NCBI GenBank assembly: GCA_945861575.1
Contig: CAMAVD010000023.1
Span: 1-34,717 of the forward strand
Direction: 5' to 3'
Length of the DNA: 34,717 bases
From: Akkermansia muciniphila
GTDB taxonomy: Bacteria; Verrucomicrobiota; Verrucomicrobiia; Limisphaerales; UBA11320
Shown here: one piece after another, positions 1,087 through 19,067 of the stretch
How positions within the stretch are numbered: the stretch's first letter is position 1
Layout of the letters: each line of letters begins with the position of its first letter
Notes under the pieces: generated by a model
The model's input: only the letters and a program-made list of their open reading frames with translations
Told to the model about the DNA's origin: nothing
Database searches by the model: none
Made by a program: the position numbers and the translations under genes

Positions 1087-3129
1087 ATGAACCCTGGATC
1101 CAATCTGTTCTGGCTGCGGCTCCGGTCGCTGGGAGTGCTTGTCCTACTCTGGATTCACCTCGCAGCGGCTCCCCTCCGGGCTCAACCAACCTCGGCTCGC
1201 GTCGAGCCGCCTTTGGTCCTCGCGCCGCTGGACTCGTCGACCCGCCTGTGCATCGAGGCGACCGGATCAGCCGGGCTCCGTTATCAATGGCAGAGGAACG
1301 GTGTGAATCTCCCAGGACAAACCAATGCCTGCCTGGAGGTAGACCGCGTTTCGATCGAGGATGGCGGAAGCTATCGTGCCACGGTCTCCGATGCCGAGGG
1401 GACACTCCAGAGCGACGAAGCTTCCTTGGTTGTAGACCTCAAGCTTCTCCCAGGGGCCGATGGCTTTGTCGACGGCACCCGGGTCGCTGCCGTCAGCAAC
1501 AGCATTAGGGGAGTGATGTTTGCCGCGACTCGAGAGCTTGGCGAACCTGTGCACTCTGGACTGCAGACGAGCAATTCAGTTTGGTATTCTTGGACTGCTC
1601 CCGCCAGTGGGATCGTCACCTTCGACACCCGTGGCAGTGCGCTCGACACCGTGATCGCTGCCTATTCTGGTAGCGACCTCGCTCACCTGACTGAATTGGC
1701 CAGCGACGATGACGAGGGAGGATTTCATACCAGCCTGATCCGCTGGAATGCGGAGGCTGGTTCCCTCTACCACATCGCGATCGACGGCGTGACCGCTGAA
1801 ACCGGGACCTATCTGTGCAATTGGAAGCTGGAGGTCACTGCAGACCGTCTGCCTGTGGTCAGCGCGCGTCCACAGGGGCAAACAGTCCTCGCAGGGGCAA
1901 CGGCTCGCTTTTCAGTCACCGCACGTCCCGAGCCCGGCCTGACCTTCCAGTGGTTTCACAACGGTCAATCACTCCCAGGAGAAACCGCCCCTACGCTAAC
2001 GCGGGCGACCGTGGGGAACAGCAGTCTCGGCGTCTACCGAGTGCGTGTGACCAATGCCTCGGGACGCTCCGTGATCACTCCGCCCGCAGATTTGGAGATC
2101 GGCCCCGACCCTGAAGTGCGTTCACGAGACAAGATTGCTCAGATGCCAGACATTGACTCGGTGTTTCTCGCAGCTTCGGCTCGACCCCGATTGATGGGTC
2201 TTGGCTCGGGAGGAAGCTTCTCCCTCACCGCCGGCACGGTCATCAATCAACGGTTTTTCAACGCAGGAACGGTCGATCGATGTGAACCAGCCCATTGCGG
2301 AGTTCCTGGCGGTGCTTCACGTTGGTTTCAACTCGTGGCGGCCTCCGATGGTATCTGCACTGTCGACACTCAAGGCAGCGATGTGGACACAGTCTTGGCT
2401 TTATATCTCCAAAACTTTTCCATCTGCACCAAACTTTACGAACCCCTGGTGGATTGCAATAACGACACTCTCGGAGTTTGTGAGGAGATCCTAGCGCCAA
2501 ACGGCTCGCCGGAGCGGACCAGCCGGATTAGCTTCTCGGCCATCGCTGGCACGGTGTACCGGGCTGTCGTGGATAGCGTCGGAGGGGTGAGGGGCACGAA
2601 CATCCAGTTCAACGTTCGTTATGAGACGGGAGAGTCCTTGTCGACCAATCTGGTGACCTTGGCCGACAACACCAACGCCTTGTTGCAGATTCGGGGAAGC
2701 AGTGTGACGCTTGTGGCGGCGCCTCACGCCCCCCTCTCGAATGGGAGTTATCGCTGGCAGGTCAACGGACGGACGATCGCGGGCGTGACAGGTGACCGCC
2801 TTAGGCTCCCCTTCCTCAACTACTCGGATGCGGGCCAGTATTCCGTGACCTGGCACATGGGAACCGTCGCGACTTTCCTAGGAGCTGCTGGAGTGTCCGT
2901 CGTCTCTCCCTGCCTTCAGGAAGCAACAGGGCAACCGCTTACTACTGAGAGGACGTTTCAACTTCTGGGCCGAGCCGCCGGGTCGGTTCTTCTGGAGGCA
3001 TCGCCCACTTTGAATTCCGCCTCCGCCTGGCGCATGATCGGACCGATTCGGGCTTCCAGCCAACCCACATTGTGGAACGTGAGCACGGGATCAAGCCTGT
3101 TCTACCGAACGGTTCGCACCGCCCCCTAG
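1087..3129 (+). CDS. Secreted multidomain Ig-like/PPC-like protein
   Basis: I chose the ATG at 1087 because GGAG (1077-1080) sits six bases before it; in-frame starts at GTG 1063 and ATG 1072 lack such a site. The product is about 680 residues. It opens with a Sec signal peptide (hydrophobic LGVLVLLWIHLAAA, likely cut after LRAQ). Domain order: an Ig-like fold with the 'YQWQRNG...GSYRATVSDAEG' signature (about residues 40-115), a beta-sandwich module resembling pre-peptidase C-terminal domains ('SVWYSWTAPASGIVTFDTRGS..DTVIAAY', about 125-245), a second Ig-like fold ('FQWFHNGQSLPG...GVYRVRVTNASG'), a second PPC-like module with several Cys ('SRWFQLVAASDGICTVDTQGSDVDTVLALY'), a third Ig-like fold, and a C-terminal strand region ending in FYRTVRTAP. 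Such proteins are exported and are presumed to bind ligands or cell surfaces. No catalytic residues are visible. It ends 12 bases before the FecR-barrel gene, so the two are probably co-transcribed. Confidence 0.85.
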   Translation: MNPGSNLFWLRLRSLGVLVLLWIHLAAAPLRAQPTSARVEPPLVLAPLDSSTRLCIEATGSAGLRYQWQRNGVNLPGQTNACLEVDRVSIEDGGSYRATVSDAEGTLQSDEASLVVDLKLLPGADGFVDGTRVAAVSNSIRGVMFAATRELGEPVHSGLQTSNSVWYSWTAPASGIVTFDTRGSALDTVIAAYSGSDLAHLTELASDDDEGGFHTSLIRWNAEAGSLYHIAIDGVTAETGTYLCNWKLEVTADRLPVVSARPQGQTVLAGATARFSVTARPEPGLTFQWFHNGQSLPGETAPTLTRATVGNSSLGVYRVRVTNASGRSVITPPADLEIGPDPEVRSRDKIAQMPDIDSVFLAASARPRLMGLGSGGSFSLTAGTVINQRFFNAGTVDRCEPAHCGVPGGASRWFQLVAASDGICTVDTQGSDVDTVLALYLQNFSICTKLYEPLVDCNNDTLGVCEEILAPNGSPERTSRISFSAIAGTVYRAVVDSVGGVRGTNIQFNVRYETGESLSTNLVTLADNTNALLQIRGSSVTLVAAPHAPLSNGSYRWQVNGRTIAGVTGDRLRLPFLNYSDAGQYSVTWHMGTVATFLGAAGVSVVSPCLQEATGQPLTTERTFQLLGRAAGSVLLEASPTLNSASAWRMIGPIRASSQPTLWNVSTGSSLFYRTVRTAP

Positions 3130-3141
3130 CCTCTCCCCGCC

Positions 3142-6100
3142 ATGAAGGATGCATTGTCTCCAGGATGGAAAGGGTGGAAGGAAACACGCTCACGGTTTTG
3201 CGCCTGGCGGTGGCTGCCGCGGAAAGGCGTTGAACGTTTGTTTTTGTGGGCCTTTCTTTCCATGAGCCTTCACCTCAGCGTTGAGGCCAATGATCAGGGG
3301 GATGTCCTCGTGCCCACGAACGGTGTTCAGGTCATCGCATTGCAAGGCACCAACTGGTGGGTCGCTCCCAACGGCGCGGCCGATTGGGTTCTAGCCTCCA
3401 CCCGCATGCCTCAGAATGTCTATCCGGGAGACCGCATTCGGACGGGCCGACACACTCGACTGTTTCTCCGGACGCAGCATCTGGGCGTGATCCAAGTGCC
3501 CCCGCTAAGCACCTTGGAAATCTCGCGACCTCCGGGGGAGGGAACCTCACTTGGGTTGAGGATTCTCAACGGAATGCTCTACCTCTTCCATCGAGGCACA
3601 CCGACTGATGTGGAGGTCTACTCCCGGAGCGCGTCCGCTGCCGTTCGGGGCACCGAGTTTGTTGCTGAAGCGTTGGAGGATGGCGGGCTTGCGATTCGTA
3701 TGGTGGACGGGCGTGTCGATCTGCGCAACGAGCGTGGCAGCGTCGTGTTGCAGAAGGGGGAGGATGGGGTCGCTGCGACGGGAGTCCCCCCCCGACAGAC
3801 ACCCGCACTGTTCGCTCTCAACGCCATTCAGTGGTGCCTATACTATCCGGCCGTTCTGGACACGGAGGAGCTCTCGCTTGACGCTGAGACGGCTGGCCTC
3901 CTGCAGGAATCTCTCTCCGCCTACCGTTCGGGAGATCTTGTTGGCGCGCTGGCAAAGTATCCTTCGGGCAGGACCGCTGTTACCACAGAGGAACGGGTCT
4001 ATCTCGCGGCGCTGTGGTTAAGCCTTGGGCAGGCCCCACAAGCGGAGGCCTTGATGGACGGCCTTGACGGGGCTCGCTCTGTGACGACGAACGCGAATCG
4101 CTTAGCCGGGGCCCTCCGGCTTATGATCGCCGCCACACAGGCGCAGACGCGCCCAGCGAGCGCCTCCTCCGCGCCGGAGCTGGCCAGCGAATGGATGGCG
4201 GAATCCTACTTCCTACAAGGGCAGGACGATCTGGAGGCTGCACGTCATGCAGCCCAGAAAGCCACGCGAACATCCCCGCGCTTCGGTTTTGCCTGGGCTC
4301 GCCTCGCGGAATTGGAATTCGGGTTCGCGCGCATTTCCGAGGCGAGTGACGCCTTGAAAGTGGCCCTGGAGATCTCTCCGCTCCACGCAGCAGCAGTGAC
4401 CCTCCAAGGCTTTCAACTCTGTGCGAGGAATCGTATTCCCGAGGCCCTAGAAACATTCAATCAGGCGATCCATTTAGATCCAGGACTTGGGAATGCCTGG
4501 CTTGGACGGGGTCTGTGCCGGATACGGCAAGGCCAAAGCCAGGCAGGCTTGCAGGATCTAGAGGTCGCGGCCGCGGTGGAACCACAGCGTGCGCTCCTTC
4601 GAAGTTATCTGGGAAAAGCCTTTTCCGCTGCGGGAGACGGGGCGCGTGCAGACAAGGAGTTGGAGCTTGCACGCGAGATGGATCCCAATGATCCCACCTC
4701 CTGGCTCTACTCAGCTCTGCTGGATCAGCAACGGGGGCGCATCAATCAAGGTATCCGCCATCTCCAGAGGTCGAAGGAGCTGAACCAGAGCCGTGGCCTC
4801 TATCGATCACGCCATCTTCTCGATCAGGATCAGGCCGTCCGTGGTGCGAACTTAAGTGCTCTCTATCGCGACGCCGGGCTCTTGGATTTGAGCCGAAGGG
4901 AGGCGGTCGAGGCCGTCAACACCGACTATGCCAACGCCTCTGCGCATCTCTTCCTGGCCAACAGCTACAATGATTTGCGTGACCCAGGGCAGGTGGATCT
5001 GCGCTACGAGACACCCTGGTTTACAGAGTATCTGATCGCCAATCTCCTGGCACCTGTGGGTGCGGGCATTCTATCGCAAACCGTCTCAGCCCAAGAGTAC
5101 TCACGACTGTTTGAGCGGGACGGGGTGGGAGTGGTTTCTCTGACGGAGTATGCAAGCAATGGGGATTGGCTCCAAGCAGGGGCCCAGTACGGGCTCCTTG
5201 GAAATCTAGCCTACAGTTTGGAGGGAGACTATCGCGTCAGCAACGGGCAACGGGCCAATCAGACTCTCGAGCAGCGTGCCTTGTCCTTCAAGTTTAAGCA
5301 GCAGCTGGGAATCAACGATTCGGTGTATGTTCAGGCCGTTCTCTACGACGCACAAGGGGGGGATCTCGGGAGGGCGTATGATCCAACCGATCCAGCCCTG
5401 TCCCGCCCAGGCTACCGCTTTCGGGAAAAACAGGAGCCACTCCTCCTTGCTGGCTTTCATCACCAATGGTCACCGGGACAGCACACACTCGTTCTGGCCG
5501 GACGACTGGCGGACGAGTCGGTTGCGACAGATCCGGCTCAGCCGGTCCTTCTGGTGTCCAAAGATCTGAGCGGAGCCGTCACTGGAACCGTGCGCACCAG
5601 CGTCGATCAGCGGTATCGAAGCGAGCAGGAGCTCTACAGCTTGGAGCTCCAGCATATCGCCCAGGTGGATCCGTGGACTTTCATTGTGGGCGGACGCTCA
5701 CAGCGGGGTGAATTTGATGTCTCCAGCCGTCAATCGAACCTAGCGGATCAGGCTCCAGCCCTTCCGACCCCCCTCGATCAGCATGTGGAGCCCGGTCTTC
5801 AGCGACTGAGCGCCTATGGTTATGCGCAGTGGAAAGTGTTGGATTCCCTCTCCTTGTTTGGAGGGTTGACCTTCGACCACCTTCGGATGCCCTCCAACCA
5901 TCGGTTCGCGCCGCTGCTCGATGAGGAGGAGAGCCGGGAACAGTGGTCCCCCAAAGCGGGAGTCGCGTGGAAAGTGGGGCCGTTGTCGACCTTCAGCGCT
6001 TCTTACACCCATTCTCTCACCGGGGTAGGCCTGGATCAGAGCTATCGTCTCGAGCCCTCGCAGGTTGCCGGTTTCAATCAAGCTTGGCGCGGACTCATTC

Positions 6101-6762
6101 CGGAGTCGGTGGCAGGCGCTGGCGCTGGAGCGCGCCTGGAGATGGTTTCACTGCAGTGGGATCAAAGACTCCCTAGTGAGACCTATCTGGCGCTTCGGGG
6201 AGATATCGGCCGATCCACCGCACAGCGTCGCCTGGGCGTCTTCGATTTACCTTTCCTGGCCGAGCCCTCCAGCACCACTGAGCGGTTGGACTTCAGGGAG
6301 GAGACCCTCACCCTCCATTTGAACCAACTCGTGGGAACAGGGGGAGTTCTGGGGGCTCAGTATCGACTCAGCAAGGCCCAGTTGGATGAGAACTACCTGA
6401 GCATCCCGGGATCAGCCCTTCACTTCTTTTCTCCCTATCAGCTCCAGCCGCAGACCCGCCTGGAGAGCGTTCTTCATCAGATGCAGCTCTTCTCCCTGTG
6501 GAACCATCCGTCCGGCGTCTTTGGCCGATTGGAAGCGCTGTGGTCCACTCAGAGTAATCAGGGCTATTCCCCAGATCGACCCGGGGACAGTTTCTGGCAC
6601 TTCAACGTCTTCGCTGGTTATCGTTTCCCCCGTCGACGGGCGGAGATCCGGCTGGGAATCGTCAATCTAGCGGACCGCGACTACCGTCTAAACCCTCTCA
6701 ACCTCACCCCTGAGCTTCCTCGCCATCGCACGTTCGTCGCGAGCGTCCGGCTTAGTTTTTAG
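3142..6762 (+). CDS. FecR domain-TPR-outer membrane beta-barrel fusion protein
   Basis: A 1206-residue protein. A long basic N-region and a hydrophobic core (LFLWAFLSMSLHLSVEA) give a signal peptide; ATG 3262 (MSLHLS) is a possible internal start, but it would cut into the core. Residues about 53-217 form a FecR domain: 'VYPGDRIRTG.HTRLFLR', 'STLEIS', then 'SASAAVRGTEFVAEA...MVDGRVDLRNERGSVVLQKGEDGVA', where VRGTEF and the DG.V.L motif are family hallmarks. Residues about 243-565 are TPR-like helical repeats with typical 'A..L.P....AW..LG' spacing. From about 606 the sequence alternates polar and hydrophobic residues as in transmembrane strands and closes with TFVASVRLSF, a terminal aromatic residue typical of BAM-assembled barrels and reminiscent of TonB-dependent receptor C-termini. 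I see no plug domain or TonB box. FecR proteins normally relay signals to ECF sigma factors. Here the sensor is fused to a putative barrel, and a kinase and a sigma factor follow. The exact function is inferred. Confidence 0.8.
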   Translation: MKDALSPGWKGWKETRSRFCAWRWLPRKGVERLFLWAFLSMSLHLSVEANDQGDVLVPTNGVQVIALQGTNWWVAPNGAADWVLASTRMPQNVYPGDRIRTGRHTRLFLRTQHLGVIQVPPLSTLEISRPPGEGTSLGLRILNGMLYLFHRGTPTDVEVYSRSASAAVRGTEFVAEALEDGGLAIRMVDGRVDLRNERGSVVLQKGEDGVAATGVPPRQTPALFALNAIQWCLYYPAVLDTEELSLDAETAGLLQESLSAYRSGDLVGALAKYPSGRTAVTTEERVYLAALWLSLGQAPQAEALMDGLDGARSVTTNANRLAGALRLMIAATQAQTRPASASSAPELASEWMAESYFLQGQDDLEAARHAAQKATRTSPRFGFAWARLAELEFGFARISEASDALKVALEISPLHAAAVTLQGFQLCARNRIPEALETFNQAIHLDPGLGNAWLGRGLCRIRQGQSQAGLQDLEVAAAVEPQRALLRSYLGKAFSAAGDGARADKELELAREMDPNDPTSWLYSALLDQQRGRINQGIRHLQRSKELNQSRGLYRSRHLLDQDQAVRGANLSALYRDAGLLDLSRREAVEAVNTDYANASAHLFLANSYNDLRDPGQVDLRYETPWFTEYLIANLLAPVGAGILSQTVSAQEYSRLFERDGVGVVSLTEYASNGDWLQAGAQYGLLGNLAYSLEGDYRVSNGQRANQTLEQRALSFKFKQQLGINDSVYVQAVLYDAQGGDLGRAYDPTDPALSRPGYRFREKQEPLLLAGFHHQWSPGQHTLVLAGRLADESVATDPAQPVLLVSKDLSGAVTGTVRTSVDQRYRSEQELYSLELQHIAQVDPWTFIVGGRSQRGEFDVSSRQSNLADQAPALPTPLDQHVEPGLQRLSAYGYAQWKVLDSLSLFGGLTFDHLRMPSNHRFAPLLDEEESREQWSPKAGVAWKVGPLSTFSASYTHSLTGVGLDQSYRLEPSQVAGFNQAWRGLIPESVAGAGAGARLEMVSLQWDQRLPSETYLALRGDIGRSTAQRRLGVFDLPFLAEPSSTTERLDFREETLTLHLNQLVGTGGVLGAQYRLSKAQLDENYLSIPGSALHFFSPYQLQPQTRLESVLHQMQLFSLWNHPSGVFGRLEALWSTQSNQGYSPDRPGDSFWHFNVFAGYRFPRRRAEIRLGIVNLADRDYRLNPLNLTPELPRHRTFVASVRLSF

Positions 6763-6824
6763 CAGGGTTTTCGTTTGCAATTCCAGCGTTTGCATTTGCA
6801 GTGTTGCCTCTCGCTATCGACCCC

Positions 6825-8816
6825 ATGGGAACTCGCAACGCATACCTGAGATACGAAACGATAGCCGTGCTGTCCGTCGTGGCGTTGGGTTGCCTCTGCG
6901 TGCTCCCGCTTCACACCCCACCCTTCCTGGTGCGATGCAGTTACGATCTTCTACAACTGGCAATGCCCGCTCAGAAGGCACCCCCCCCTATCGTCATCTA
7001 CATGGACGAACAGGCCACTCAGGATTACCAGCAGAAGCCGGGTCAGCCGTGGAGCCGGGCCGTTCACGCTCGCTTACTCGACCGTCTGACCCTCGATAAG
7101 CCCAGCGTGGTGGTCTTTGATGCGATTTTCTCCGAAGCGGGAGACCCGCAGTCCGACGCCTTGCTCGCACGCGCCATGCGTCGCAATGGCCGAGTGGTGT
7201 TGGCGGGAGATCGTGTGTCGACGGCGGGACAAAACGGCTACACGCTCTTCCCCCCCCTCGACCCGTTCGAGACCAACGCAGCAGGTTGGGGAACCGCCAA
7301 GGTATACGTGGATTCAGATCGGGTGGTCCGCCGCTACGATCCGGGGGATGACCAGCATCCAAGCCTTGCCTGGAAAGCGGCGACAATTTCAGGCGGGAAA
7401 GGCACGGCGTTGCCCCATCGTCGGTTGAGCGAGGATCGCTGGCTCAACTACTACGGCAGCGCCTCCCCATTCGCGAGCCATTCGATGAGCTATTCCAATG
7501 CCGAAACGCGTGCGCCGGGATTCTTTGCGGGGAAGGCAGTGTTTATCGGTGGCAAACCGCAGACACTATTGCGCGGGGAGGTGGCCGATGTGTTTGGAAC
7601 ACCGTTCACCCTCTGGAAGGGAAGCTTCGTTCCCGGAGTGGACATCACCGCGATCGCCTATGCCAATCTGATGGCCGATGATTCCTTGCACCGGACAGGA
7701 TGGCTGAGCGAGCTGGGAGTTCTAATTTTGGTCGGAGTGGGCGCAGGCGCTGTCTTTCCCAGGCTTGGCCGCACCCAGTTGGTTTGTGTGGCAATAGGTT
7801 GTGGAGCGCTGGGGGCAGTGATTGCGGCGGGCATCTGTCTCAGCTGGGGGGTGTGGTTTCCCTGGGTGGTTGTTTGCGGCATACAAATCCCCTCCGCGCT
7901 GGTTCTTTCACTGGTGTTCCGTTGGCCTAGCCACAACTCAACCGCTGCAGCGTTGAAGGCATCCCCCCCCTTGGATGCAGAAGCCAGTCATACTTCAGGA
8001 AGGGTGTTGGAGATCCCGGATCATGCTCTGATCCGGTGCATCGGCGAAGGTGCCTACGGCCAAGTCTGGATCGCGCGCAATGCCATTGGTCTTCATCATG
8101 CCGTAAAGGTGGTGTATCAGAATCGCTTCGGTGGAGTGGAGCCCTATCAGAGAGCGTTTCGTGGCATCCAAAAATTCATGCCCATTTCCCGATCCCACAA
8201 AGGATTCGTGAACATCCTGCATGTTGGGCGGAACGAATCGGTCGGCTACTTCTTTTGTATCATGGAACTCGGGGACGACCAAAAGACCGGACAAGACATC
8301 GATCCCTCCTGCTATCTTCCACGGACACTCTCCAGCGACCTGAGACAACGAGGAACGCTTCCCCCGCGCGAATGCCTCGGCTTCATGCTAGCTCTGACCG
8401 AAACGGTCCATGAGTTGCACCTGCAACGCCTGGTGCATCGGGACATCAAGCCGGCGAACATCCTGTTTGTGAGGGGAAACCCTAAGCTTGCCGATATCGA
8501 CCTGGTCACCGACATCTCCCGGATGGGCGAGACCAGCCGTATTGGAACCGAAGGGTATATGGCCCCCGAGGGACCAGGGGCTGCGCAAGCGGACGTCTAC
8601 AGTTTAGGACGAGTTCTCTATGTGGCTCTTACCGGCAAGTCGCCGGATCAATGTCCAGAGCTCCCCACCCAGATCGGAAGCGTTGAGGATCCAGGTCTGT
8701 TCATGGAAATGAATCAAATCCTCTGCAAAGCCTGCGACGCGAATCTGACTCGCCGATACCCATCCGCCGCCCTGATGCGCGCGGATCTGCTCAAGGCCTT
8801 CCACAAGCTACAATAA
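6825..8816 (+). CDS. CHASE2-domain transmembrane serine/threonine protein kinase
   Basis: I chose ATG 6825 (MGTRNAYLR, 663 residues); a GTG at 6801 would add eight residues. One membrane segment (about residues 15-35) is followed by an extracytoplasmic CHASE2 domain ('PPIVIYMDEQATQDY', 'RAVHARLLDRL...VVVFDAIFSE', 'GKAVFIGG', 'VPGVDITAIAYANLM'), then three hydrophobic helices (about 290-380) and a cytoplasmic kinase domain from about 400. Visible kinase motifs: Gly loop GEGAYGQVW, catalytic Lys in HAVKVV, HRDIKPANI, and TEGYMAPEGPG as activation-loop end with APE. The DFG metal-binding triplet reads DID (in KLADIDLV), keeping the Asp but not Phe-Gly; from memory, DIG is usual in this bacterial subfamily. 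The product likely phosphorylates Ser/Thr in response to an external cue. It sits between the FecR-barrel gene (62 bases before it) and the sigma factor gene, which suggests that it phosphorylates the sigma factor or another regulator. Confidence 0.92.
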   Translation: MGTRNAYLRYETIAVLSVVALGCLCVLPLHTPPFLVRCSYDLLQLAMPAQKAPPPIVIYMDEQATQDYQQKPGQPWSRAVHARLLDRLTLDKPSVVVFDAIFSEAGDPQSDALLARAMRRNGRVVLAGDRVSTAGQNGYTLFPPLDPFETNAAGWGTAKVYVDSDRVVRRYDPGDDQHPSLAWKAATISGGKGTALPHRRLSEDRWLNYYGSASPFASHSMSYSNAETRAPGFFAGKAVFIGGKPQTLLRGEVADVFGTPFTLWKGSFVPGVDITAIAYANLMADDSLHRTGWLSELGVLILVGVGAGAVFPRLGRTQLVCVAIGCGALGAVIAAGICLSWGVWFPWVVVCGIQIPSALVLSLVFRWPSHNSTAAALKASPPLDAEASHTSGRVLEIPDHALIRCIGEGAYGQVWIARNAIGLHHAVKVVYQNRFGGVEPYQRAFRGIQKFMPISRSHKGFVNILHVGRNESVGYFFCIMELGDDQKTGQDIDPSCYLPRTLSSDLRQRGTLPPRECLGFMLALTETVHELHLQRLVHRDIKPANILFVRGNPKLADIDLVTDISRMGETSRIGTEGYMAPEGPGAAQADVYSLGRVLYVALTGKSPDQCPELPTQIGSVEDPGLFMEMNQILCKACDANLTRRYPSAALMRADLLKAFHKLQ

Positions 8817-8883
8817 ACCCTCTGTGTCCCGCTGGGTAAGCTCGGGGATCTTTCCGGGATTGAATTTGCAGGACCTTTGGCGG

Positions 8884-8920
8884 AGGATGCTCTCAACGCA
8901 TCAGGATGCGAGAGTATCCT
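8884..8920 (+). promoter_or_regulatory. Long hairpin/inverted repeat just before the sigma factor start
   Basis: AGGATGCTCTC (8884-8894) can pair with GAGAGTATCCT (8910-8920): eleven pairs with one G-U in RNA. Inside, GCAT and ATGC extend the fold after a three-base bulge. It ends nine bases before the ATG at 8930, where a ribosome site would lie, and no Shine-Dalgarno motif is visible in the short single-stranded spacer. It could be an RNA switch controlling translation, a terminator-like attenuator without a T run, or a dyad operator. Only the fold is seen; the role is inferred. Confidence 0.5.
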
Positions 8921-8929
8921 GAAGACTGA

Positions 8930-9703
8930 ATGTCCACCGACGAATCGAACGACGAGGCCCAGAAGGGGCAGCGGTTTCCGGCCACCCACTGGACGGACAT
9001 TATGGCCTCGCGTGGGGAAGGGTCGGCGGCCGCCGGGGAAGCGCTGAACCGCCTCTGCACCTCCTACTGGTATCCCATCTACGCCTACATCCGGCGCAAA
9101 GGCCACTCGGATGCGGATGCCAAAGATATTGCCCAAGGCTTTTTCCACCACGTCCTTGAGCGGAATCTCCTGGGGTCGGCTGATCGCACCAAAGGGAAGT
9201 TTCGCTCCTTTCTGCTAGGTGCCCTCAACTACTTCCTGGCGAATCTCTACGAGTTTGAACGAGCCCAGAAGCGTGGCGGGGGTGCCGTGTTGATCTCGCT
9301 CGACGACAAGACGGGGGAAGAGCGCTACGCCCTGGAGCCGGTGGACGATCTTTCTCCGGAGAAACTTTTTGAGCGCCGATGGGCTCTCGATCTCCATGAT
9401 CAGGCGATCCTACATCTTCGGGAGGACTATTGCCGACAAGGCAAGGAGCAGCTTTTCCAGCATCTGAAGCCCTTTCTCATCGATCAGACCGACCCGGGCG
9501 ACTACGCCAACGTCGCGCGGGCTCTCGACATGTCACCCGGAGCGGTGACCACGGCGTCGAGTCGTTTACGCAGCCGCTATGGGGAGTTCATCAATGCGGA
9601 GATTGCCCGTACCGTCGCGAGCCCGGAGGAGATTCCCAGCGAACGCCGCTATATCTGTGAGATGCTCTGCCTGGCCAACGCTTCCTCTGATCCTCGGAGA
9701 TAG
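8930..9703 (+). CDS. RNA polymerase sigma factor, ECF-like (sigma-70 family)
   Basis: 257 residues. The N-terminal FPATHWTDIMASRGEGS segment and the region-2 motif 'CTSYWYPIYAYIRRKGHSDADAKDIAQGFFHHVLER' (residues about 40-80) match a family of large ECF-like sigma factors that I associate with Planctomycetes and Verrucomicrobia, often encoded next to Ser/Thr kinases. 'GKFRSFLLGALNYFLANLYE' follows, as in core-binding helices. The C-terminal third holds a helix-turn-helix ('DYANVARALDMSPGAVTTASSRLRSRY') fitting sigma region 4, which contacts the -35 element. It is longer than a standard ECF factor of about 180-200 residues because of a central linker and a C-terminal tail. No anti-sigma gene is adjacent; the upstream FecR-barrel protein or the kinase may do that job. 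It converges with the ROK gene 78 bases downstream. Confidence 0.9.
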   Translation: MSTDESNDEAQKGQRFPATHWTDIMASRGEGSAAAGEALNRLCTSYWYPIYAYIRRKGHSDADAKDIAQGFFHHVLERNLLGSADRTKGKFRSFLLGALNYFLANLYEFERAQKRGGGAVLISLDDKTGEERYALEPVDDLSPEKLFERRWALDLHDQAILHLREDYCRQGKEQLFQHLKPFLIDQTDPGDYANVARALDMSPGAVTTASSRLRSRYGEFINAEIARTVASPEEIPSERRYICEMLCLANASSDPRR

Positions 9704-11720: not shown

Positions 11721-12410
11721 TCAACGCTTGCGATGAAAGCTGTCCTGCGAGTAGCGACCGGCGTGCAGGGCATCCGCGCAGCGTTTCCATTCGGGCGCAC
11801 CAGAAAACTCTCCCCAGCCTGTGCCCCAGGCAACCGTGGCCGTTTCCTGCAGACTCCTCTCCCACTGACCGCGGCTCAAGGAAGGAGGCTGACGCTGGAT
11901 GGACCCCTGAATGAGCAGTCCATCGCGCGTGCGCCTTTGGGCTGCCCCCGCAATCTTCCCTCCGTCTCGTAGAAGGTCGAACTTTTCCGGGCCCGCGAAG
12001 CACTGTCCCGGGAGCTCCTTTGCACAGCAAGTCGACAGCTCGGTGGCCACACCCAGTTGGGTGAAGGAATCGCGGATCCACTCATGCAGCCTGCGATAAC
12101 TCTCCTCAGCCCGCAGCGAATACCACGAGTGCGAGGACGGAAAGATCAGGCTGTAGGTCCAGTCCGCATCGTGAGGAACGAGGCCGCCAGCCGTCGGACG
12201 CCGGACCAACGGGCGCAGCGCTGTGACCTTCTCCATCTCCGCGTAGTGCTGAAAATAGCCAAAGCTCGCGGCCGGCTGCGTCCAGGAGTAGACGCGCAGC
12301 ACCGGCATCGGCCATTGCGACGCTCGCTCCAGGAGTGCCTCGTCCGCTGCCATATTCCATCCAGGATCGCATGCACCCGAGTCAAAAAACGACCAAGTCT
12401 CGGAGCTCAT
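11721..12410 (-). CDS. Biotin/lipoate A/B protein ligase family protein (lipoate-ligase-like)
   Basis: 229 residues from ATG 12410; the TGA of the upstream CotH gene overlaps this ATG by one base (TGATG), a coupling arrangement. Family signs: 'NMAADEALLE' near the N-terminus, 'PVLRVYSWTQPAASFGYFQ', 'RRPTAGGLVPHDADWTYSL' (the RRxxGGGxVxHD lipoyl-AMP pocket, with Ala replacing one Gly), 'QCFAGPEKFDLL', and 'GGKIAGAAQRRTRDGLLIQGSI', which carries the conserved Lys. The protein should bind lipoate or octanoate and transfer it to a carrier protein, or act as an octanoyltransferase of the LipM type; the Cys before FAGP is compatible with either. It is shorter than two-domain LplA (about 340 residues) and lacks the C-terminal accessory domain. 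The GC-rich 3' end and 213 bases up to the SDR gene hold nothing clear. Confidence 0.8.
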   Translation of the reverse strand: MSSETWSFFDSGACDPGWNMAADEALLERASQWPMPVLRVYSWTQPAASFGYFQHYAEMEKVTALRPLVRRPTAGGLVPHDADWTYSLIFPSSHSWYSLRAEESYRRLHEWIRDSFTQLGVATELSTCCAKELPGQCFAGPEKFDLLRDGGKIAGAAQRRTRDGLLIQGSIQRQPPSLSRGQWERSLQETATVAWGTGWGEFSGAPEWKRCADALHAGRYSQDSFHRKR

Positions 12411-14113
12411 CAAGGTTTTCCTTCCAGCTGAGGAACCAGTTTGCGAACGCGTAGCGAGTCACTTTCAAAAAACGCACGTCCCTTCTTTGCCCGCAGGTCA
12501 CAGATCAATTCGATCTCTTCATCAGGATCCTCAACGACAAATTCATGGGTGACTTCCTGCCAGGGCGTATCGCCGCTCAGCGCGTTGGTACGACGACGCT
12601 GAGAGACACGAAGCCCTGCGCCCGAACCGCGAACCAGCTTGCCAGCCACTTCGACACCTTCAGTCCGAACGCGCCCTATCAGTGCGTAGCGTCCCGGGGG
12701 AAGCTGAAGTGCGACACGATACGAAGCCAGGCAAGCCTCCTGCGGTTTGGCCTCCTTACCGTTGACGGGGGTGCTCGTCACCTCGATCCCCAGCACGCGG
12801 GCGCCATTCACCGCCTGATCGCTAAACTGTGCTTCACCGGCATCGAGCCGGCTTTTCCATCCCTTTACCAGCAGTTCGCCCTTCGCGTCGAAGGCCAGCT
12901 GATTGGTGTCGCGCGCTCCGAACCGCCGGCCTAGGAAGGCCGCTCGCTGAGCCACCTGTCTTCTCAGATTTCGGACGCTCTCTTCGTGCGCCATGGCTTG
13001 ATCGGGTTCGACCGACGCTAGGGCCGGATGGATCCGCTCATAGATTTGAGTCATTCGATTGGTCAGCAAGGAGGCGAGAAAAAGATTGGTGGTGAGCCAT
13101 GCAGCGCGATCGCGGAACATCGCTGCCCCGGCAGGAGTGTTGAGGACTGCCTGTGCAACAAGCCCGTCGGCACCTGGGCGGACGGTTCCGTTGGCGCTCC
13201 AGAACATCTGATCCATTCCATGCGGAAAGAACACAACACGATCCGATTCCGGATCGTGGTAAACCCGGTAATTGTTCCTCTTCATGAGATATCCATCCCA
13301 ATGCCAGGTCATCATTTCCAGAGCAAGGAAAGAGACAAATCGGTCCAGATCGAGACGTTGACCGATGGCAGCCAAACGCTGGGCGGGGTCCTCGATGTCA
13401 CAAGCCTTGACCAGCCGATCCGCTGCGGGTTGGCCTTCACCCTCGTCACCCGAGATTTTCTGCAATGGCTCGGAGATATCGCGAAGAAATCCTCCGTCAT
13501 AGAGATTTCCTGTGGCGTTCTTGAAATGGCGTTTCAGGAACTGCTTTCCAAAGCCTTCCTTGAGGACATAAAGCCCGAGCTTTCGGCCATTGAGTTCAAC
13601 CACTGCGTGTGTGGTGCGGGCTGCGGGCACACCTGCCGCGAGGAAAAGCTCGCTGCACAGGAGTTCGGTCATGTAGCTGGGATCTTGGACGGAGTTGTTG
13701 AGATGAAACTTGCTCAGACCGAAGAGGCTTTGACCGGGGATGAACTTGTCGAGGTTCAGGGTCAAGGCGGGACGATCGTCAATGCTCCGAGAGCTTCCGG
13801 CGGCACCTTTGACGTGGATACCTACGTCCGAGACCGTCTTGTCCCCGTCTCGAATCCTCGCTTTGACGTAGTTGCGCGGGTTGTGTCGCAGTTCCTCCAT
13901 GCCCGCGGCAGAGATCTCGATCCGCAGGGTAGGAATGATTCCGCTTTCGAAGAAGGGATCGGCCTTGTCCCGACGGATCGAACTTAGGTTATTGGCAGGC
14001 GCAGGGTCAAAGCCGTAAGAGAAGGTGGGGAGAAGGCACGCGGCCGCCAAAGCCAGCACAAGCCGGCTGGCAGCCAGAGGAATCCGTCGAGACAGATAAG
14101 ACGCCTGACGCAC
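12410..14113 (-). CDS. Secreted CotH-kinase family protein
   Basis: 567 residues from a GTG at 14113; an in-frame TAG at 14123-14125 rules out a longer form and there is no nearby ATG. A signal peptide is evident (LVLALAAACLLPTFSYG). The CotH fold is shown by 'GIHVKGAAGSSRSIDDRPALTLNLDKFIPGQ', 'FHLNNSVQDPSYMTELLCSELFLAAGVPAART', 'GLYVLKEGFGKQFLKRHF...GNLYDGGFLRDI' and 'MMTWHWDGYLMKRNNYRVYHDP...FFPHGMDQMF', the last holding candidate catalytic Asp residues. CotH proteins are atypical kinases that phosphorylate secreted proteins; in Bacillus CotH modifies spore-coat proteins. The last 150 residues form a beta-rich region ('YALIGRVRTEGVEVAG...TPWQEVTHEFVVEDPDEEIELICDLRA') that looks like a carbohydrate-binding-type sandwich. 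It is coupled to the lipoate-ligase-like gene downstream. The biological target is unknown. Confidence 0.88.
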   Translation of the reverse strand: MRQASYLSRRIPLAASRLVLALAAACLLPTFSYGFDPAPANNLSSIRRDKADPFFESGIIPTLRIEISAAGMEELRHNPRNYVKARIRDGDKTVSDVGIHVKGAAGSSRSIDDRPALTLNLDKFIPGQSLFGLSKFHLNNSVQDPSYMTELLCSELFLAAGVPAARTTHAVVELNGRKLGLYVLKEGFGKQFLKRHFKNATGNLYDGGFLRDISEPLQKISGDEGEGQPAADRLVKACDIEDPAQRLAAIGQRLDLDRFVSFLALEMMTWHWDGYLMKRNNYRVYHDPESDRVVFFPHGMDQMFWSANGTVRPGADGLVAQAVLNTPAGAAMFRDRAAWLTTNLFLASLLTNRMTQIYERIHPALASVEPDQAMAHEESVRNLRRQVAQRAAFLGRRFGARDTNQLAFDAKGELLVKGWKSRLDAGEAQFSDQAVNGARVLGIEVTSTPVNGKEAKPQEACLASYRVALQLPPGRYALIGRVRTEGVEVAGKLVRGSGAGLRVSQRRRTNALSGDTPWQEVTHEFVVEDPDEEIELICDLRAKKGRAFFESDSLRVRKLVPQLEGKP

Positions 14114-14548: not shown

Positions 14549-14995
14549 ATGAAGTCTCATCGACCTGCCACCCACCGTCGGCTCGCCAGCACCGCACTGC
14601 TCTGCGCCACTGTTTGCGTTTCATCCGTAAGCGCCGAGACCATCGTCGGTCTGACACCGAACAACACCCTCGTCACGCTCGACAGCTCAAACCCAGGGAC
14701 TCTCGCCACAAGCCAGGTCGTTCAGGGGCTCGGCTTGGCCAAAGCCCCGCGCGTAGACAGAGCGAAGAGCTGCGAGGCAGACTACGTGTTTCCACTCGGT
14801 GTGTTCGCCACACCCGCTCTCAGACCAGAATCTTGTGTGCCACATTCCCGAACACGTCGGTCAGCCGGTAGTCCCGTCCGGCGTGAGCGTAGGTCAGTCG
14901 GGTGTGGTCAAGTCCCAGCAGGTGCAGAATGGTGGCGTGCAGGTCGTGGATTGTGCAGCGATCTTCCACCGCATGGTATCCGAACTCATCGGTAG
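14549..14995 (+). pseudogene. Truncated DUF4394-type secreted protein gene
   Basis: From ATG 14549 (a GTG at 14531 is also in frame) the frame encodes a clear signal peptide (STALLCATVCVSSVSA) and then 'ETIVGLTPNNTLVTLDSSNPGTL' and 'VVQGLG', the start of a DUF4394 repeat, which from memory reads 'I.GLT..N.LV.FDS..PGT......GL..GE.L.GIDFRP'. Homology stops at about base 14740. The rest of the open frame (to 14995) is simply the antisense of the DUF1501 gene from 14820 on, with Arg/Ser-rich nonsense composition. A full DUF4394 protein has some 230 or more residues after the signal peptide. I infer that the gene lost its 3' part when the downstream block arrived or through a deletion. It might still be transcribed toward the DUF1501 gene. 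Confidence 0.6.
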
Positions 14996-16259
14996 CTCCG
15001 TATCGGAAACCCGGCTTAATACCCCCACCAGCCATCCAAAGCGTGAAGCCGTCGGGATGATGATCGCGTCCTTTGGGCCCCTCGCCGGACTGGACCGTCG
15101 GCGTGCGACCAAACTCGCCGCTCCAAACGACCAACGTGTCCTCCAACAGACCCCGCGCCTTTAAGTCCTGGATGAGGCCGGAGATCGGCTTGTCGATCTG
15201 TTTCACGTTTATGGAGTGACCCTTCTCGAGATGGCTGTGCTGATCCCACTGCTCATTGTTGAACTTCAAGCTGCCGGCATGGCTTACCTGGATAAACCTG
15301 ACATCGCGCTCGGCGAAGCGTCGTGCCAGAAGGCACATATGACCAAAGTTTTGCGTCTCTGGCTCGTCCATTCCGTAAAGCGCACGGGTGGCCGGTGTTT
15401 CCTCGCGAAGGTCGGTGGCCTCGGGGGCGGCCGTCTGCATGCGGAAGGCCAGTTCGAAAGACTGGATGCGTGCCTCCAGATTCGGATCCATTCCGGCCGT
15501 GGCGATGTCCTTTTCGTGAAGACGACGCAGCAGATCAAGCTGCAACCTTTGTTGGACTGGGTTCGAATTCGGACTGGCGATGTAGTTGAACTTCGCGTCC
15601 TTCGCCGAGGTGTTCGGATACCCCGGCGTGCCCAACGGCACACCTTGATGAACGGCAGGCAGAAAGGACGAACCATAATTGTTGACCCCGCCATGCAGCG
15701 AGGTCGGGCAGATCGTGATGAAAGCCGGGAGGTTTTGATTCTCTGAGCCGAGGCCGTAGCTGATCCAAGAACCCATGCTGGGCCGGACGAATGCCTCATG
15801 CCCGCAATGCAGGTGCATGCAGGCTCCGCCATGGGAAACGTTGGTTTCACACATCGAGTGGACCATGCACAGCTCGTCGGCCACCCGAGGCAGGTGCTGC
15901 CACAACTTGGACATCCACAGGCCTGACGCCCCCACCTGCCTGAAGTCCCAGAGTGGCCGCATGATATTGCCGCGGCTGGCAAACTGGACGGACCGCTCCT
16001 TAAAGGGGAGCGGTTTGTCGTGGTCGGCGAAAAGACGGGGCTTGTAGTCAAAAAGATCGATGTGCGAGGGGCCGCCGTGCATGAACAGAAAAATCACCCG
16101 CTTGGCCCTTGCCCGGAAGGGAGGCACATGGGGCTGCAGAGGATTGGCAGCCATCGATGCATTGAAAGCCAGGCCCCCGAAGCCAAGACAGAGCTGCTGC
16201 AGGAGCGCACGTCTGGAAAGACCCAATCGGGCATGAGGAGAGGGGGTGAGGATACTCAT
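14820..16259 (-). CDS. DUF1501 domain-containing (sulfatase-like) protein
   Basis: 479 residues. The N-terminus LSRRALLQQLCLGFGG is a Tat-type twin-arginine signal, so a folded, exported protein is expected. The DUF1501 core starts with 'AKRVIFLFMHGGPSHIDLFDYKP' and continues through 'SHGGACMHLHCGHEAFVRPSMGSWISYGLG', 'LPAFITI', 'QVSHAGSLKFNNEQWDQHSHLEKGH', 'VVWSGEFGRTPTVQ' and the C-terminal 'IHDLHATILHLLGLDHTRLTYAHAGRDYRLTDV'. The fold belongs to the alkaline phosphatase/sulfatase superfamily, but no formylglycine motif (CxPxR) is visible. In Planctomycetes and Verrucomicrobia it is almost always paired with a PSD1 protein, as here, with 21 bases between the two genes. The function of the pair is unproven; polysaccharide processing is commonly suggested. 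Confidence 0.95.
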   Translation of the reverse strand: MSILTPSPHARLGLSRRALLQQLCLGFGGLAFNASMAANPLQPHVPPFRARAKRVIFLFMHGGPSHIDLFDYKPRLFADHDKPLPFKERSVQFASRGNIMRPLWDFRQVGASGLWMSKLWQHLPRVADELCMVHSMCETNVSHGGACMHLHCGHEAFVRPSMGSWISYGLGSENQNLPAFITICPTSLHGGVNNYGSSFLPAVHQGVPLGTPGYPNTSAKDAKFNYIASPNSNPVQQRLQLDLLRRLHEKDIATAGMDPNLEARIQSFELAFRMQTAAPEATDLREETPATRALYGMDEPETQNFGHMCLLARRFAERDVRFIQVSHAGSLKFNNEQWDQHSHLEKGHSINVKQIDKPISGLIQDLKARGLLEDTLVVWSGEFGRTPTVQSGEGPKGRDHHPDGFTLWMAGGGIKPGFRYGATDEFGYHAVEDRCTIHDLHATILHLLGLDHTRLTYAHAGRDYRLTDVFGNVAHKILV

Positions 16260-16280
16260 AGCTCTGGTTCGGTCTCGAGG

Positions 16281-19067
16281 TTACCAGGAATGGACGAATT
16301 CATTTGAGATGAGCAGGGTTTGACAGAGGGCCGTCCAAGCGAGCTCCGGGTCTTTGACTCCTGCGATTCCCGTCGCCGCCGCGCCATACGCCTCCAGAAA
16401 ACTCAGACTCCACTCCAACTCAGCGGGTGAGGCGGGACGGCTGAAGAGCATCCGATGCAGATAGTCCAGCCGGGAGCGCTCCCCTTCGAGACGTGCATCG
16501 CTGCGCACACGATTCACAAGGCGACGGGCCTGGCTGATCAGGAAGGGATTGTTCATCATCAGCAACGCTTGTGTCGGCACCGTGGTGGTAACTCTGTTCC
16601 CCTCCGGGGTCGAAGCGTTCGGAAAGTCCAGCAGGGTCAGGAGATCATACACATTGGAGCGCACCACCGGCAGATAAACAGCTCGGCGTGGCGACTCTTC
16701 ATAAACCTTCCGGTTCTTCTCCAGATCTGATGGGGAGGGGTCCCCAGAGACCACCTTGAGCGGCGTACCGCCCGTGCGGAGGTCCAAGGTGCCTGCCAGC
16801 ATCAAAAGCGCATCGCGAAATGCCTCGGCTTCCAGGCGGAGGATATCTCGCTTCCAATAGAGAGTGTTGGCCAGGTCCATCTGTTCGGCTCTTGGATTTC
16901 GCACCGCAGAGGCCATCTGGTAGGTGCTCGAAAGCAGAATCCGCCGGTGCATCGCCTTAATCGACCACCCGTCCTGAATGAAACGCCAGGCCAGATGATT
17001 CAGCAGATCAACATGCGTTGGACGCTCCCCTTTGGTTCCAAAATTGTCTGGGGATCCAACGATCCCTTTGCCGAAATGCCAGCGCCAGATTCGGTTGACC
17101 ATGACCCGGCTGGTCAGCGGATGATCTGGACGACTGAACCATCGTGCCAATTCCAATCTTCCGCTGACCCGAGGACTCAAAGAGGGCCTCCCATCCGCTC
17201 CGATCTTGCTCAAAAAGCCGCGAGGGACCTGCGCTCCCAGAGACGTGTGGCTTCCACGAATGTGGATCTTCGCGTCGCCAACACTGCCGTCCCTGACGGC
17301 CATGACTCTCGACGGCTGTGGGGCATCGGCACGGACCTGGCCGAGATTGGTGGCCTGTTGCGAGACGTAGGCAACTGCTTCGCTGAGGGCGTTGGTCGAG
17401 CGCACCGGCGTCAGCCTTATCTTGTCGAGATGAGCCATATTCGGCTTCGACTCCAACCGAAGAACATTGCGGCCGACTGGAATGGCAAAAACGCCTTGAG
17501 AACACCACCGTTGGTTTGCGGGCATCCAACCCCCGGTGGTTTCGGCAAGTGCCTTCACCTTGACCTCACCACCGTTGAGAAGGATTCGCCCAGGCCTGGC
17601 CTCAAGTGCGGCATAACGAATCTCCATCAAGTACGAGGCCGCCTCGGCAACCTCCAGATCGTATTCCACGAAATTATCCTGCGCGCCGGGATCCGAGATG
17701 ATGCCTATCTCCTTGCCGAAGTGGTTGGTGTCGCGGGACGCATTGCCACGGAGAAATGATTCGGCTTCGATCTCGATCTTGGCTTTCTCATCGAGCATGT
17801 CTCGCCTCTTCTTCTCAGCTTCGCTTAGCTCCAGCTCCGCGCGCTTGAGCCGGGCTTGATGGGCGGCCAAGGAGTTCCGGTAGGCCGTCGTTTCCAATGG
17901 AAGATCTTCGATGGTCGTGCTGTGAAAGATGCCCGCCAGAGCATAGTAATCCTCCGTGGGAATGGGATCAAACTTGTGGTCATGGCAGCGAGCGCATCCA
18001 AGGGTCAAACCCACAAACGCTTTGCCGCAGGTGTCGATCTGCTCATCGACAATGTCGGCGCGCATTTTAACTGGGTCCTTCTCCGCAAGAATTTTGGTGC
18101 CGATGGCTAGGAAGCCGGTGGCGGTAAGCCGCCTAGCCTGCTCGTCGGGCTCTGGCGAGGGTGGCAGTAGATCCCCTGCAATCTGTTCTTGCAGGAAGCG
18201 GTCATAAGGGACGTCTTGGTTGAAGGCGTCGATCACATAGTCTCGATAGCGAAAGGCGTAGGGGTAGTAGCGATTCTCGTCTCCGCCATTGGAGTCACCA
18301 TAGCGGGCGATGTCCAGCCAATGGCGCCCCCAGCGCTCGCCGTATTGGGGTGAGCCAAGCAGCCTGTCCACGACCCTGGCAAATGCGCTCGGGGAGGTGT
18401 CGGCCAGGAACTCAGTCACCTGTTCCGGGGTTGGGGGCAATCCGATCAGGTCGAAGTAGGCCCGGCGAATCAAGACGCGAGGCTCGGCCGGGGGAGCAGG
18501 TCGCAGCCCTGCCTCCTCCAGCCTGGCTAAAACAAACACATCCAAGGATTGCGTCGCCCAGGCGCTTTGGATCACCCGCGGAAGTGGCGGATCCGCCGGG
18601 GCGACGAAGGCCCAGTGGGTTTCGTAGCGGGCTCCCTCGGCGATCCAGCGTCGTAGCAGATCGATCTCGGCATCGGTAAGGCGGACCCCTTTCTCCACGG
18701 GAGGCATGCGCTCTTCCTCGTCGCGACTGGTTATTCGCGTGATCAAGGAGCTCCCGGCCGAGTTACCAGCCACGATGGCCGGCGCGCCGGATTTTCTTGG
18801 GGCGGTCGCGTGCTCGAAAGCGTCTAGGCGAAGTTTGCCTTTGCGGTTCTGGGAGTCCGGACCATGACACTCGAAACACCGCCGGGAGAGAATAGGGCTG
18901 ATATCACGATTGAAGTCGATGGGGGGGGAAGCGCCCTTGTGCTTCTGATGAACTTCGTCTGTGGGCACCGGGACCTTTTCGGCAGCCCAACCGGGCAGCC
19001 CCCAAGTGAGCACGGCGGCCAGCAGAGGCAGGAATGAGGCAAATCGAACTGGAGGCGTCACACTCAT
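16281..19067 (-). CDS. PSD1 and planctomycete cytochrome C domain protein (DUF1549/DUF1553)
   Basis: 928 residues with a signal peptide (FLPLLAAVLTWGLPGWAAE). Order: planctomycete cytochrome c domain with heme motif CFECHG ('ISPILSRRCFECHGPDSQNRKGKLRLD', residues about 55-80); DUF1549/PSCyt2 ('LIRRAYFDLIGLPPTPEQVTEFLAD', 'YGERWGRHWLDIARYGDSNGGDENRYYPYAFRYRDYVI') with a second heme-type motif in 'LGCARCHDHKFDPI'; a helical, charged stretch rich in Glu/Lys (about 395-435); a carbohydrate-binding-like beta sandwich ('ASYLMEIRYAAL...RILLNGGEVKV'); and DUF1553/PSD1 ('RLELARWFSRPDHPLTSRVMVNRIWRWHFGKGIVGSPDNFG'). An exported c-type cytochrome is expected, perhaps passing electrons for a periplasmic reaction. 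It begins six bases after the mutY stop and is followed by the DUF1501 gene, so an operon is likely. Confidence 0.95.
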   Translation of the reverse strand: MSVTPPVRFASFLPLLAAVLTWGLPGWAAEKVPVPTDEVHQKHKGASPPIDFNRDISPILSRRCFECHGPDSQNRKGKLRLDAFEHATAPRKSGAPAIVAGNSAGSSLITRITSRDEEERMPPVEKGVRLTDAEIDLLRRWIAEGARYETHWAFVAPADPPLPRVIQSAWATQSLDVFVLARLEEAGLRPAPPAEPRVLIRRAYFDLIGLPPTPEQVTEFLADTSPSAFARVVDRLLGSPQYGERWGRHWLDIARYGDSNGGDENRYYPYAFRYRDYVIDAFNQDVPYDRFLQEQIAGDLLPPSPEPDEQARRLTATGFLAIGTKILAEKDPVKMRADIVDEQIDTCGKAFVGLTLGCARCHDHKFDPIPTEDYYALAGIFHSTTIEDLPLETTAYRNSLAAHQARLKRAELELSEAEKKRRDMLDEKAKIEIEAESFLRGNASRDTNHFGKEIGIISDPGAQDNFVEYDLEVAEAASYLMEIRYAALEARPGRILLNGGEVKVKALAETTGGWMPANQRWCSQGVFAIPVGRNVLRLESKPNMAHLDKIRLTPVRSTNALSEAVAYVSQQATNLGQVRADAPQPSRVMAVRDGSVGDAKIHIRGSHTSLGAQVPRGFLSKIGADGRPSLSPRVSGRLELARWFSRPDHPLTSRVMVNRIWRWHFGKGIVGSPDNFGTKGERPTHVDLLNHLAWRFIQDGWSIKAMHRRILLSSTYQMASAVRNPRAEQMDLANTLYWKRDILRLEAEAFRDALLMLAGTLDLRTGGTPLKVVSGDPSPSDLEKNRKVYEESPRRAVYLPVVRSNVYDLLTLLDFPNASTPEGNRVTTTVPTQALLMMNNPFLISQARRLVNRVRSDARLEGERSRLDYLHRMLFSRPASPAELEWSLSFLEAYGAAATGIAGVKDPELAWTALCQTLLISNEFVHSW

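Follow-up and report, generated by a model that had tools for sequence, protein, structure and literature searches.

A block of four genes at positions 1,087 to 9,703 of contig CAMAVD010000023.1 (assembly GCA_945861575.1, order Limisphaerales of the Verrucomicrobiota, deposited as Akkermansia muciniphila) probably encodes a trans-envelope relay of the NsrA type, with a Ser/Thr kinase and an extracytoplasmic function (ECF) sigma factor as its cytoplasmic output. The whole stretch that was analysed, 34,717 nucleotides, is referred to as the window. The central component is an outer-membrane protein of 1206 residues that combines a FecR domain, a TPR solenoid and a barrel (hereafter FTB). An NsrA-type receptor wired to kinase and sigma factor is the most likely description of the block because FTB is homologous to NsrA of Sinorhizobium meliloti, FTB genes are linked to CHASE2 genes, and sigma genes track the kinase output among related loci. 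Further computational support comes from the order of the FTB domains, from the fold predicted for them and from the linkage of FTB to genes of the Ig/PPC type.

All four open reading frames lie on the plus strand and are separated by 12, 38 and 113 bp, so the compact same-strand arrangement given in the preliminary description is confirmed. Gene 1 (1087-3129) encodes a secreted Ig/PPC-like β-bead protein of 680 residues, and gene 2 (3142-6762) encodes FTB. Gene 3 (6801-8816) specifies an inner-membrane CHASE2-Ser/Thr kinase of 671 residues (P0003), which indeed precedes the sigma gene. Its extracytoplasmic CHASE2 sensor domain (6933-7745, residues 45-315) scores 113 bits against Pfam and its protein kinase domain (8034-8651, residues 412-617, PF00069) 88 bits; the catalytic motifs VHRDIKPAN, DID in place of DFG, and APE can be read in the sequence. 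Gene 4 (8930-9703) encodes a divergent ECF-type sigma factor of 257 residues (P0004). The sigma factor has no Pfam match and a weak NCBIfam sigma70-ECF match; a profile of the protein and its relatives matches RpoE/SigE-type ECF structures in the Protein Data Bank (best E 2.4e-10).

Pfam and AlphaFold2 (AF2) agree that FecR, TPRs and barrel reside in a single FTB polypeptide, as first proposed from the translation. The AF2 model, calculated with 53 family members, has a mean pLDDT of 89.8 and a pTM of 0.87, and proceeds from a β-rich FecR domain through a TPR α-solenoid to 22 strands that form a barrel. The FecR-type domain, predicted to be periplasmic, spans 3325-3804 (model residues 15-174, protein residues 62-221, with the Pfam FecR match at 97-192), the solenoid 3883-5049 (model 201-589, protein 248-636, with Pfam TPR matches), and the barrel 5125-6756. 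The barrel resembles those of TonB-dependent receptors (Foldseek E about 1e-14, VIA-align Z about 20), with siderophore, copper and haem receptors among the structural matches. The FecR score of the FTB in the window, 22.2 bits, falls slightly below the Pfam cut-off of 24; the domain was found in all 38 family members scanned, comprising 37 FTBs and NsrA. TonB_dep_Rec_b-barrel scores 38.4 bits in the window and is present in 35 of these 38. Outer-membrane barrels usually end in phenylalanine, and this residue is C-terminal in 109 of 119 FTB homologues.

No Pfam match to a plug domain (PF07715) or to STN was obtained in any of the 38 members. In the model the last TPR helix and the first barrel strand are only about 25 residues apart, so FTB has no separate plug. 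The VIA alignments begin near model residue 520, which suggests that the last TPR helices might sit inside the modelled barrel. The FecR domain follows a signal-like hydrophobic stretch in an exported protein, and no anti-sigma domain was matched in FTB; this FecR is predicted to be a periplasmic coupling domain rather than an anti-sigma factor. In one related locus (L087:6018-9543) the FTB gene is split into three frames by stops, which is probably a pseudogene or an assembly error.

Two transport functions have to be weighed against this fold. FTB shares its 22-stranded barrel with TonB-dependent transporters, scores as TonB_dep_Rec_b-barrel and resembles receptors for siderophores, copper and haem, as would a TonB-type nutrient uptake receptor that carries a FecR-like regulatory domain and controls its own expression through kinase and sigma factor. 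Those transporters possess an N-terminal plug, for which, as for STN, the scanned FTBs give no Pfam match and the short passage from TPR to barrel leaves only about 25 residues; an uptake function is the least probable of the readings considered. Almost as improbable is a TPR-porin exporter such as BcsC or PgaA, or some other channel that exports the Ig/PPC protein or a polymer, with the CHASE2 proteins merely regulating or monitoring export. Exopolysaccharide exporters are well known to combine a TPR solenoid and a barrel in one protein, the FTB barrel lacks a plug domain, and Ig/PPC genes are linked to FTB. Export barrels of the BcsC/PgaA type have 16 strands, however, against the 22 predicted here together with the matches to TonB receptors, and it is this strand count that disfavours the exporter. 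FTB also carries the additional FecR domain and is homologous to a signal receptor, and the block holds no genes for polymer synthesis.

The closest known system is the NsrA-CyaK (and CyaD1/CyaD2)-Clr signalling of S. meliloti (Garnerone 2018, cited in PMC7529298), with CyaK having been reached through a CHASE2 search of plasmids. The gene cyaK overlaps by one base a gene for a 1197-residue protein annotated as a TonB-dependent receptor, and the FTB family aligns with this protein over its full length (hhalign probability 99.8, E 2.8e-28, 1013 columns, 22% identity). The gene nsrA is reported to lie directly upstream of cyaK. Position next to cyaK, size and described topology fit the identification of the 1197-residue protein as NsrA, which has the same Pfam domain order as FTB. 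The CHASE2 domain of the window's kinase is 30% identical to that of CyaK over 264 residues (BLASTP E 1e-17). Published work describes NsrA as the receptor in the outer membrane and CyaK as its cognate inner-membrane cyclase, and both are needed for the response to a plant or ribosomal-protein signal (PMC7529298, PMC13001267).

Both systems thus place a FecR-TPR-barrel outer-membrane protein of about 1200 residues next to an inner-membrane CHASE2 enzyme, in the window at a distance of 38 bp. They differ in output: CyaK has an adenylate cyclase at its end and signals through cAMP and Clr, whereas the CHASE2 protein of the window carries a Ser/Thr kinase and is followed by an ECF sigma factor; cyclases occur in sister loci instead. 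Unlike the S. meliloti system, the window has an Ig/PPC gene ahead of FTB, and the FTB family of the Verrucomicrobiota has expanded to several copies per genome. The block is best read as a version of the already known NsrA-CyaK receptor scheme with kinase and sigma factor as output. The FecA-FecR-FecI cascade, against which the genes had originally been set, shares with the block a 22-stranded outer-membrane barrel, a FecR domain and an ECF sigma factor. It was rejected as a template, since FTB has neither plug nor STN, its FecR domain belongs to an exported protein and not to an inner-membrane anti-sigma factor, and a kinase is inserted; NsrA-CyaK takes its place.

Homologues sharing 36-66% identity with FTB are common throughout the order, where a genome often carries several of them, and FTB-type matches occur in 55 of 58 order-level genomes, a tally that includes TPR-only matches. 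These genomes are mostly fragmented metagenome-assembled genomes (MAGs). A CHASE2 gene lies within 5 kb of 36 of 72 FTB matches in the 58 genomes, downstream in 30 cases, where 0.75 would be expected from the CHASE2 counts. Among 126 distinct FTB loci, classified with hidden Markov models built from these same loci, a CHASE2 gene is present within 6 kb at 74 and within 300 bp at 49. The grouping of the window's genes exceeds chance. The output behind CHASE2 is a class III cyclase at 36 loci, a Ser/Thr kinase at 21 and a histidine kinase-receiver at 10, the remainder being cut or unclear, and at six further FTB loci the kinase gene comes with no CHASE2. According to the FTB tree (FastTree), the output switched at least 10 times when the CHASE2-less kinase loci are counted as kinase, and 8 times among CHASE2-bearing loci. 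The conserved unit is FTB with CHASE2, the output is exchangeable, and the sigma branch is one variant. When 288 genomes of the phylum were searched for FTB beyond the order, the only long matches apart from the window's own genome came from G105, G308 and G325, all three of the same class.

Several members of the family merit separate mention. The kinase genes at L077:2801-5773, L078:3070-5679, L085:3035-5539 and in L139 (1044 residues) stand immediately upstream of FTB and next to a sigma gene; the large Ser/Thr kinases that they encode show no recognised CHASE2 domain and represent another kinase design serving the same receptor. FTB genes from MAGs labelled Akkermansia muciniphila (L090, L103, L118, L132, L159) are closest to FTBs of subdivision 3 Verrucomicrobia, and those labels are probably wrong.

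The tie between sigma factor and kinase output holds across loci: a sigma gene is present within 6 kb of 19 of the 27 kinase loci and of none of the 46 loci with a cyclase or histidine kinase (Fisher p 1.4e-11). In one genome (G023, L047) genes for FTB, CHASE2-kinase and sigma factor again follow each other in this order on a single strand, the sigma factor being of the other subfamily. The absence of an anti-sigma gene noted initially was borne out, as the next genes downstream of gene 4, for a ROK-family protein and a short-chain dehydrogenase, lie on the opposite strand. This arrangement has precedent, since ECF groups linked to Ser/Thr protein kinases and lacking anti-sigma factors are a recognised class (PMC8999054). 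Like the ECF43 systems EcfP-PknT and EcfK-PknS, the window pairs a membrane Hanks-type kinase with an adjoining ECF sigma factor. In ECF43 a threonine at the sigma2.2 position is phosphorylated (PMC8999054, PMC13147305), whereas the window's sigma factor keeps an acidic motif there (DAKD, 9116-9127) and has no phospho-threonine switch; the described ECF43 systems are also without FTB. The ECF43 switch is therefore ruled out and the phosphosite must lie elsewhere if phosphorylation activates this sigma factor. It is plausible that the kinase phosphorylates it.

A number of observations weigh against the proposed relay. At 46 of the 126 FTB loci neither a CHASE2 nor a kinase gene lies within 6 kb; some of these are at contig ends, but about 15 or more show over 5 kb of downstream sequence. 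The exact four-gene order is not conserved: the closest FTB (66% identity, G004, L035/L170) retains the Ig gene and FTB with no adjoining CHASE2 gene. That the CHASE2 enzyme needs the receptor for signal perception has been shown only for S. meliloti (PMC7529298), and the verrucomicrobial case is computational. Because the loci are related to each other, phylogenetically independent pairs were tested; these always favour sigma with kinase, yet the median p is only 0.125 (about 6 pairs). Two different subfamilies are represented among the sigma factors, whose acidic sigma2.2 motif is kept where it could be located. Finally, sigma-kinase pairs also occur in the phylum without a CHASE2 kinase, for example with a WD40 kinase, and so the pairing alone is no proof that the receptor feeds the sigma factor.

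FTB and the CHASE2 kinase could form an NsrA-CyaK-like pair while the sigma factor is not a direct kinase target, being instead a neighbour that controls the locus or a protein activated through an unseen anti-sigma factor or another phosphoprotein. Retention of the acidic sigma2.2 residues means that the sigma factors need not be intrinsically inactive; the use of two distinct subfamilies at kinase loci and the lack of a sigma gene within 6 kb at 8 of 27 kinase loci, some of them cut, point in the same direction. The uniform lack of sigma genes at the 46 loci with other outputs, the missing anti-sigma neighbour in the window and the recognised class of kinase-linked ECF groups argue the opposite, and we consider this explanation unlikely, though clearly less so than either transport function. 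As an observation in its own right, one locus encodes a WD40-repeat Ser/Thr kinase and an ECF sigma factor of the window's subfamily (L170:4397-7909 and 7980-8798) some 2-3 kb upstream of an Ig/PPC gene and FTB gene without CHASE2.

The window's own genome contains at least five FTB loci, of which the copies on contigs C126 and C117 have no CHASE2 neighbour. FTB-type CHASE2 genes with histidine-kinase, cyclase and kinase outputs are found away from FTB in this genome (L171, L173, L174, on contigs C80, C230 and C58), and these copies and genes are possible split partners. Some FTB partners may thus be encoded apart from FTB.

How the receptor might reach the kinase is suggested by CHASE2 genes that are not linked to FTB. 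Where a CHASE2 cyclase gene of this order stands apart from FTB, a stand-alone FecR-domain gene often adjoins it (six checked), and one also stands beside a CHASE2 gene on a Pseudomonas plasmid. Stand-alone FecR genes by FTB-unlinked CHASE2 genes are located at L178:2843-3715, L184:5331-6080, L185:1321-3033, L186:1-867, L187:6704-7723, L193:3283-4059 and L197:2831-3832. In Burkholderia, a FecR-LysM protein is encoded with a CHASE2 histidine kinase in the operon BiofilmReg (PMC5192318); as in the window, a FecR protein is genetically coupled to a CHASE2 signalling enzyme, but there FecR resides on a peptidoglycan-binding LysM protein, with no barrel and a two-component output. In Campylobacterota, CHASE2 cyclases occur with a FecR outer-membrane protein and a TPR protein (PMC9239204), which, unlike in FTB, are products of separate genes, and the output is cAMP with a phosphodiesterase. 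On these grounds FecR looks like a general periplasmic partner of CHASE2, and the simplest common reading, we infer, is that the two domains contact each other in the periplasm. In the CHASE2 tree, the FTB-type domains stand apart from the FecR-linked type and from CyaK. Only this coarse split was used because the branches are long and the tree program warned of false joins.

Gene 1 was initially described as a secreted Ig/PPC protein. The Ig part is upheld by Pfam (Ig_3, I-set, Ig_2), while the PPC part has no Pfam match; the AF2 model shows a chain of β-sandwiches at low confidence (pLDDT 68), and the Foldseek matches of this low-confidence model are generic Ig chains. Of the 70 best homologues, 18 are encoded no more than 6 kb from an FTB gene, compared with 0.47 expected. 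The product is a candidate surface partner or ligand-presenting protein.

A scan of the window for promoters and terminators gave nothing that exceeds shuffled expectation. Elsewhere in the window, a DUF1501 gene adjoins a PSCyt1-PSCyt2-PSD1 gene on the minus strand (14820-19067), a pair typical of Planctomycetes and Verrucomicrobia, and a CotH kinase-like gene (12410-14113) adjoins this pair.

In the proposed relay, the 22-stranded outer-membrane barrel would sense an extracellular ligand, possibly aided by the secreted Ig/PPC protein. Extending into the periplasm, the TPR solenoid and FecR domain would touch the CHASE2 domain of the inner-membrane kinase, and CHASE2 would then turn on the cytoplasmic kinase. 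The kinase would presumably phosphorylate the adjoining sigma factor and so activate it, without any anti-sigma factor, and in sister loci the same receptor would feed a cyclase or a histidine kinase. More tentatively, and at somewhat less than even confidence, a general proposal can be framed in which FecR is a general CHASE2 partner that, when fused to a plug-less TonB-type barrel, forms a receptor chassis with exchangeable output, reaching an ECF sigma factor in the window by phosphorylation rather than through an anti-sigma factor, a route for which no described FTB-kinase or CHASE2-kinase-sigma system was found among the open-licence papers searched.

In Gram-negative bacteria, the way in which signals cross the two membranes is well understood chiefly for systems of the FecA-FecR-FecI type. 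If the present reading is true, the NsrA-CyaK scheme, studied in one symbiont, would represent a widespread Verrucomicrobiota receptor family whose outputs can be exchanged. CHASE2 domains, and those FecR domains that do not act as anti-sigma factors, would then have a suggested role as partners of each other. The many paralogous FTB-CHASE2 pairs make the FecR-CHASE2 partnership testable by interaction specificity. An FTB family that is combined with a cyclase, a histidine kinase, or a Ser/Thr kinase and sigma factor suggests that surface signals are carried in a modular manner to different internal responses.

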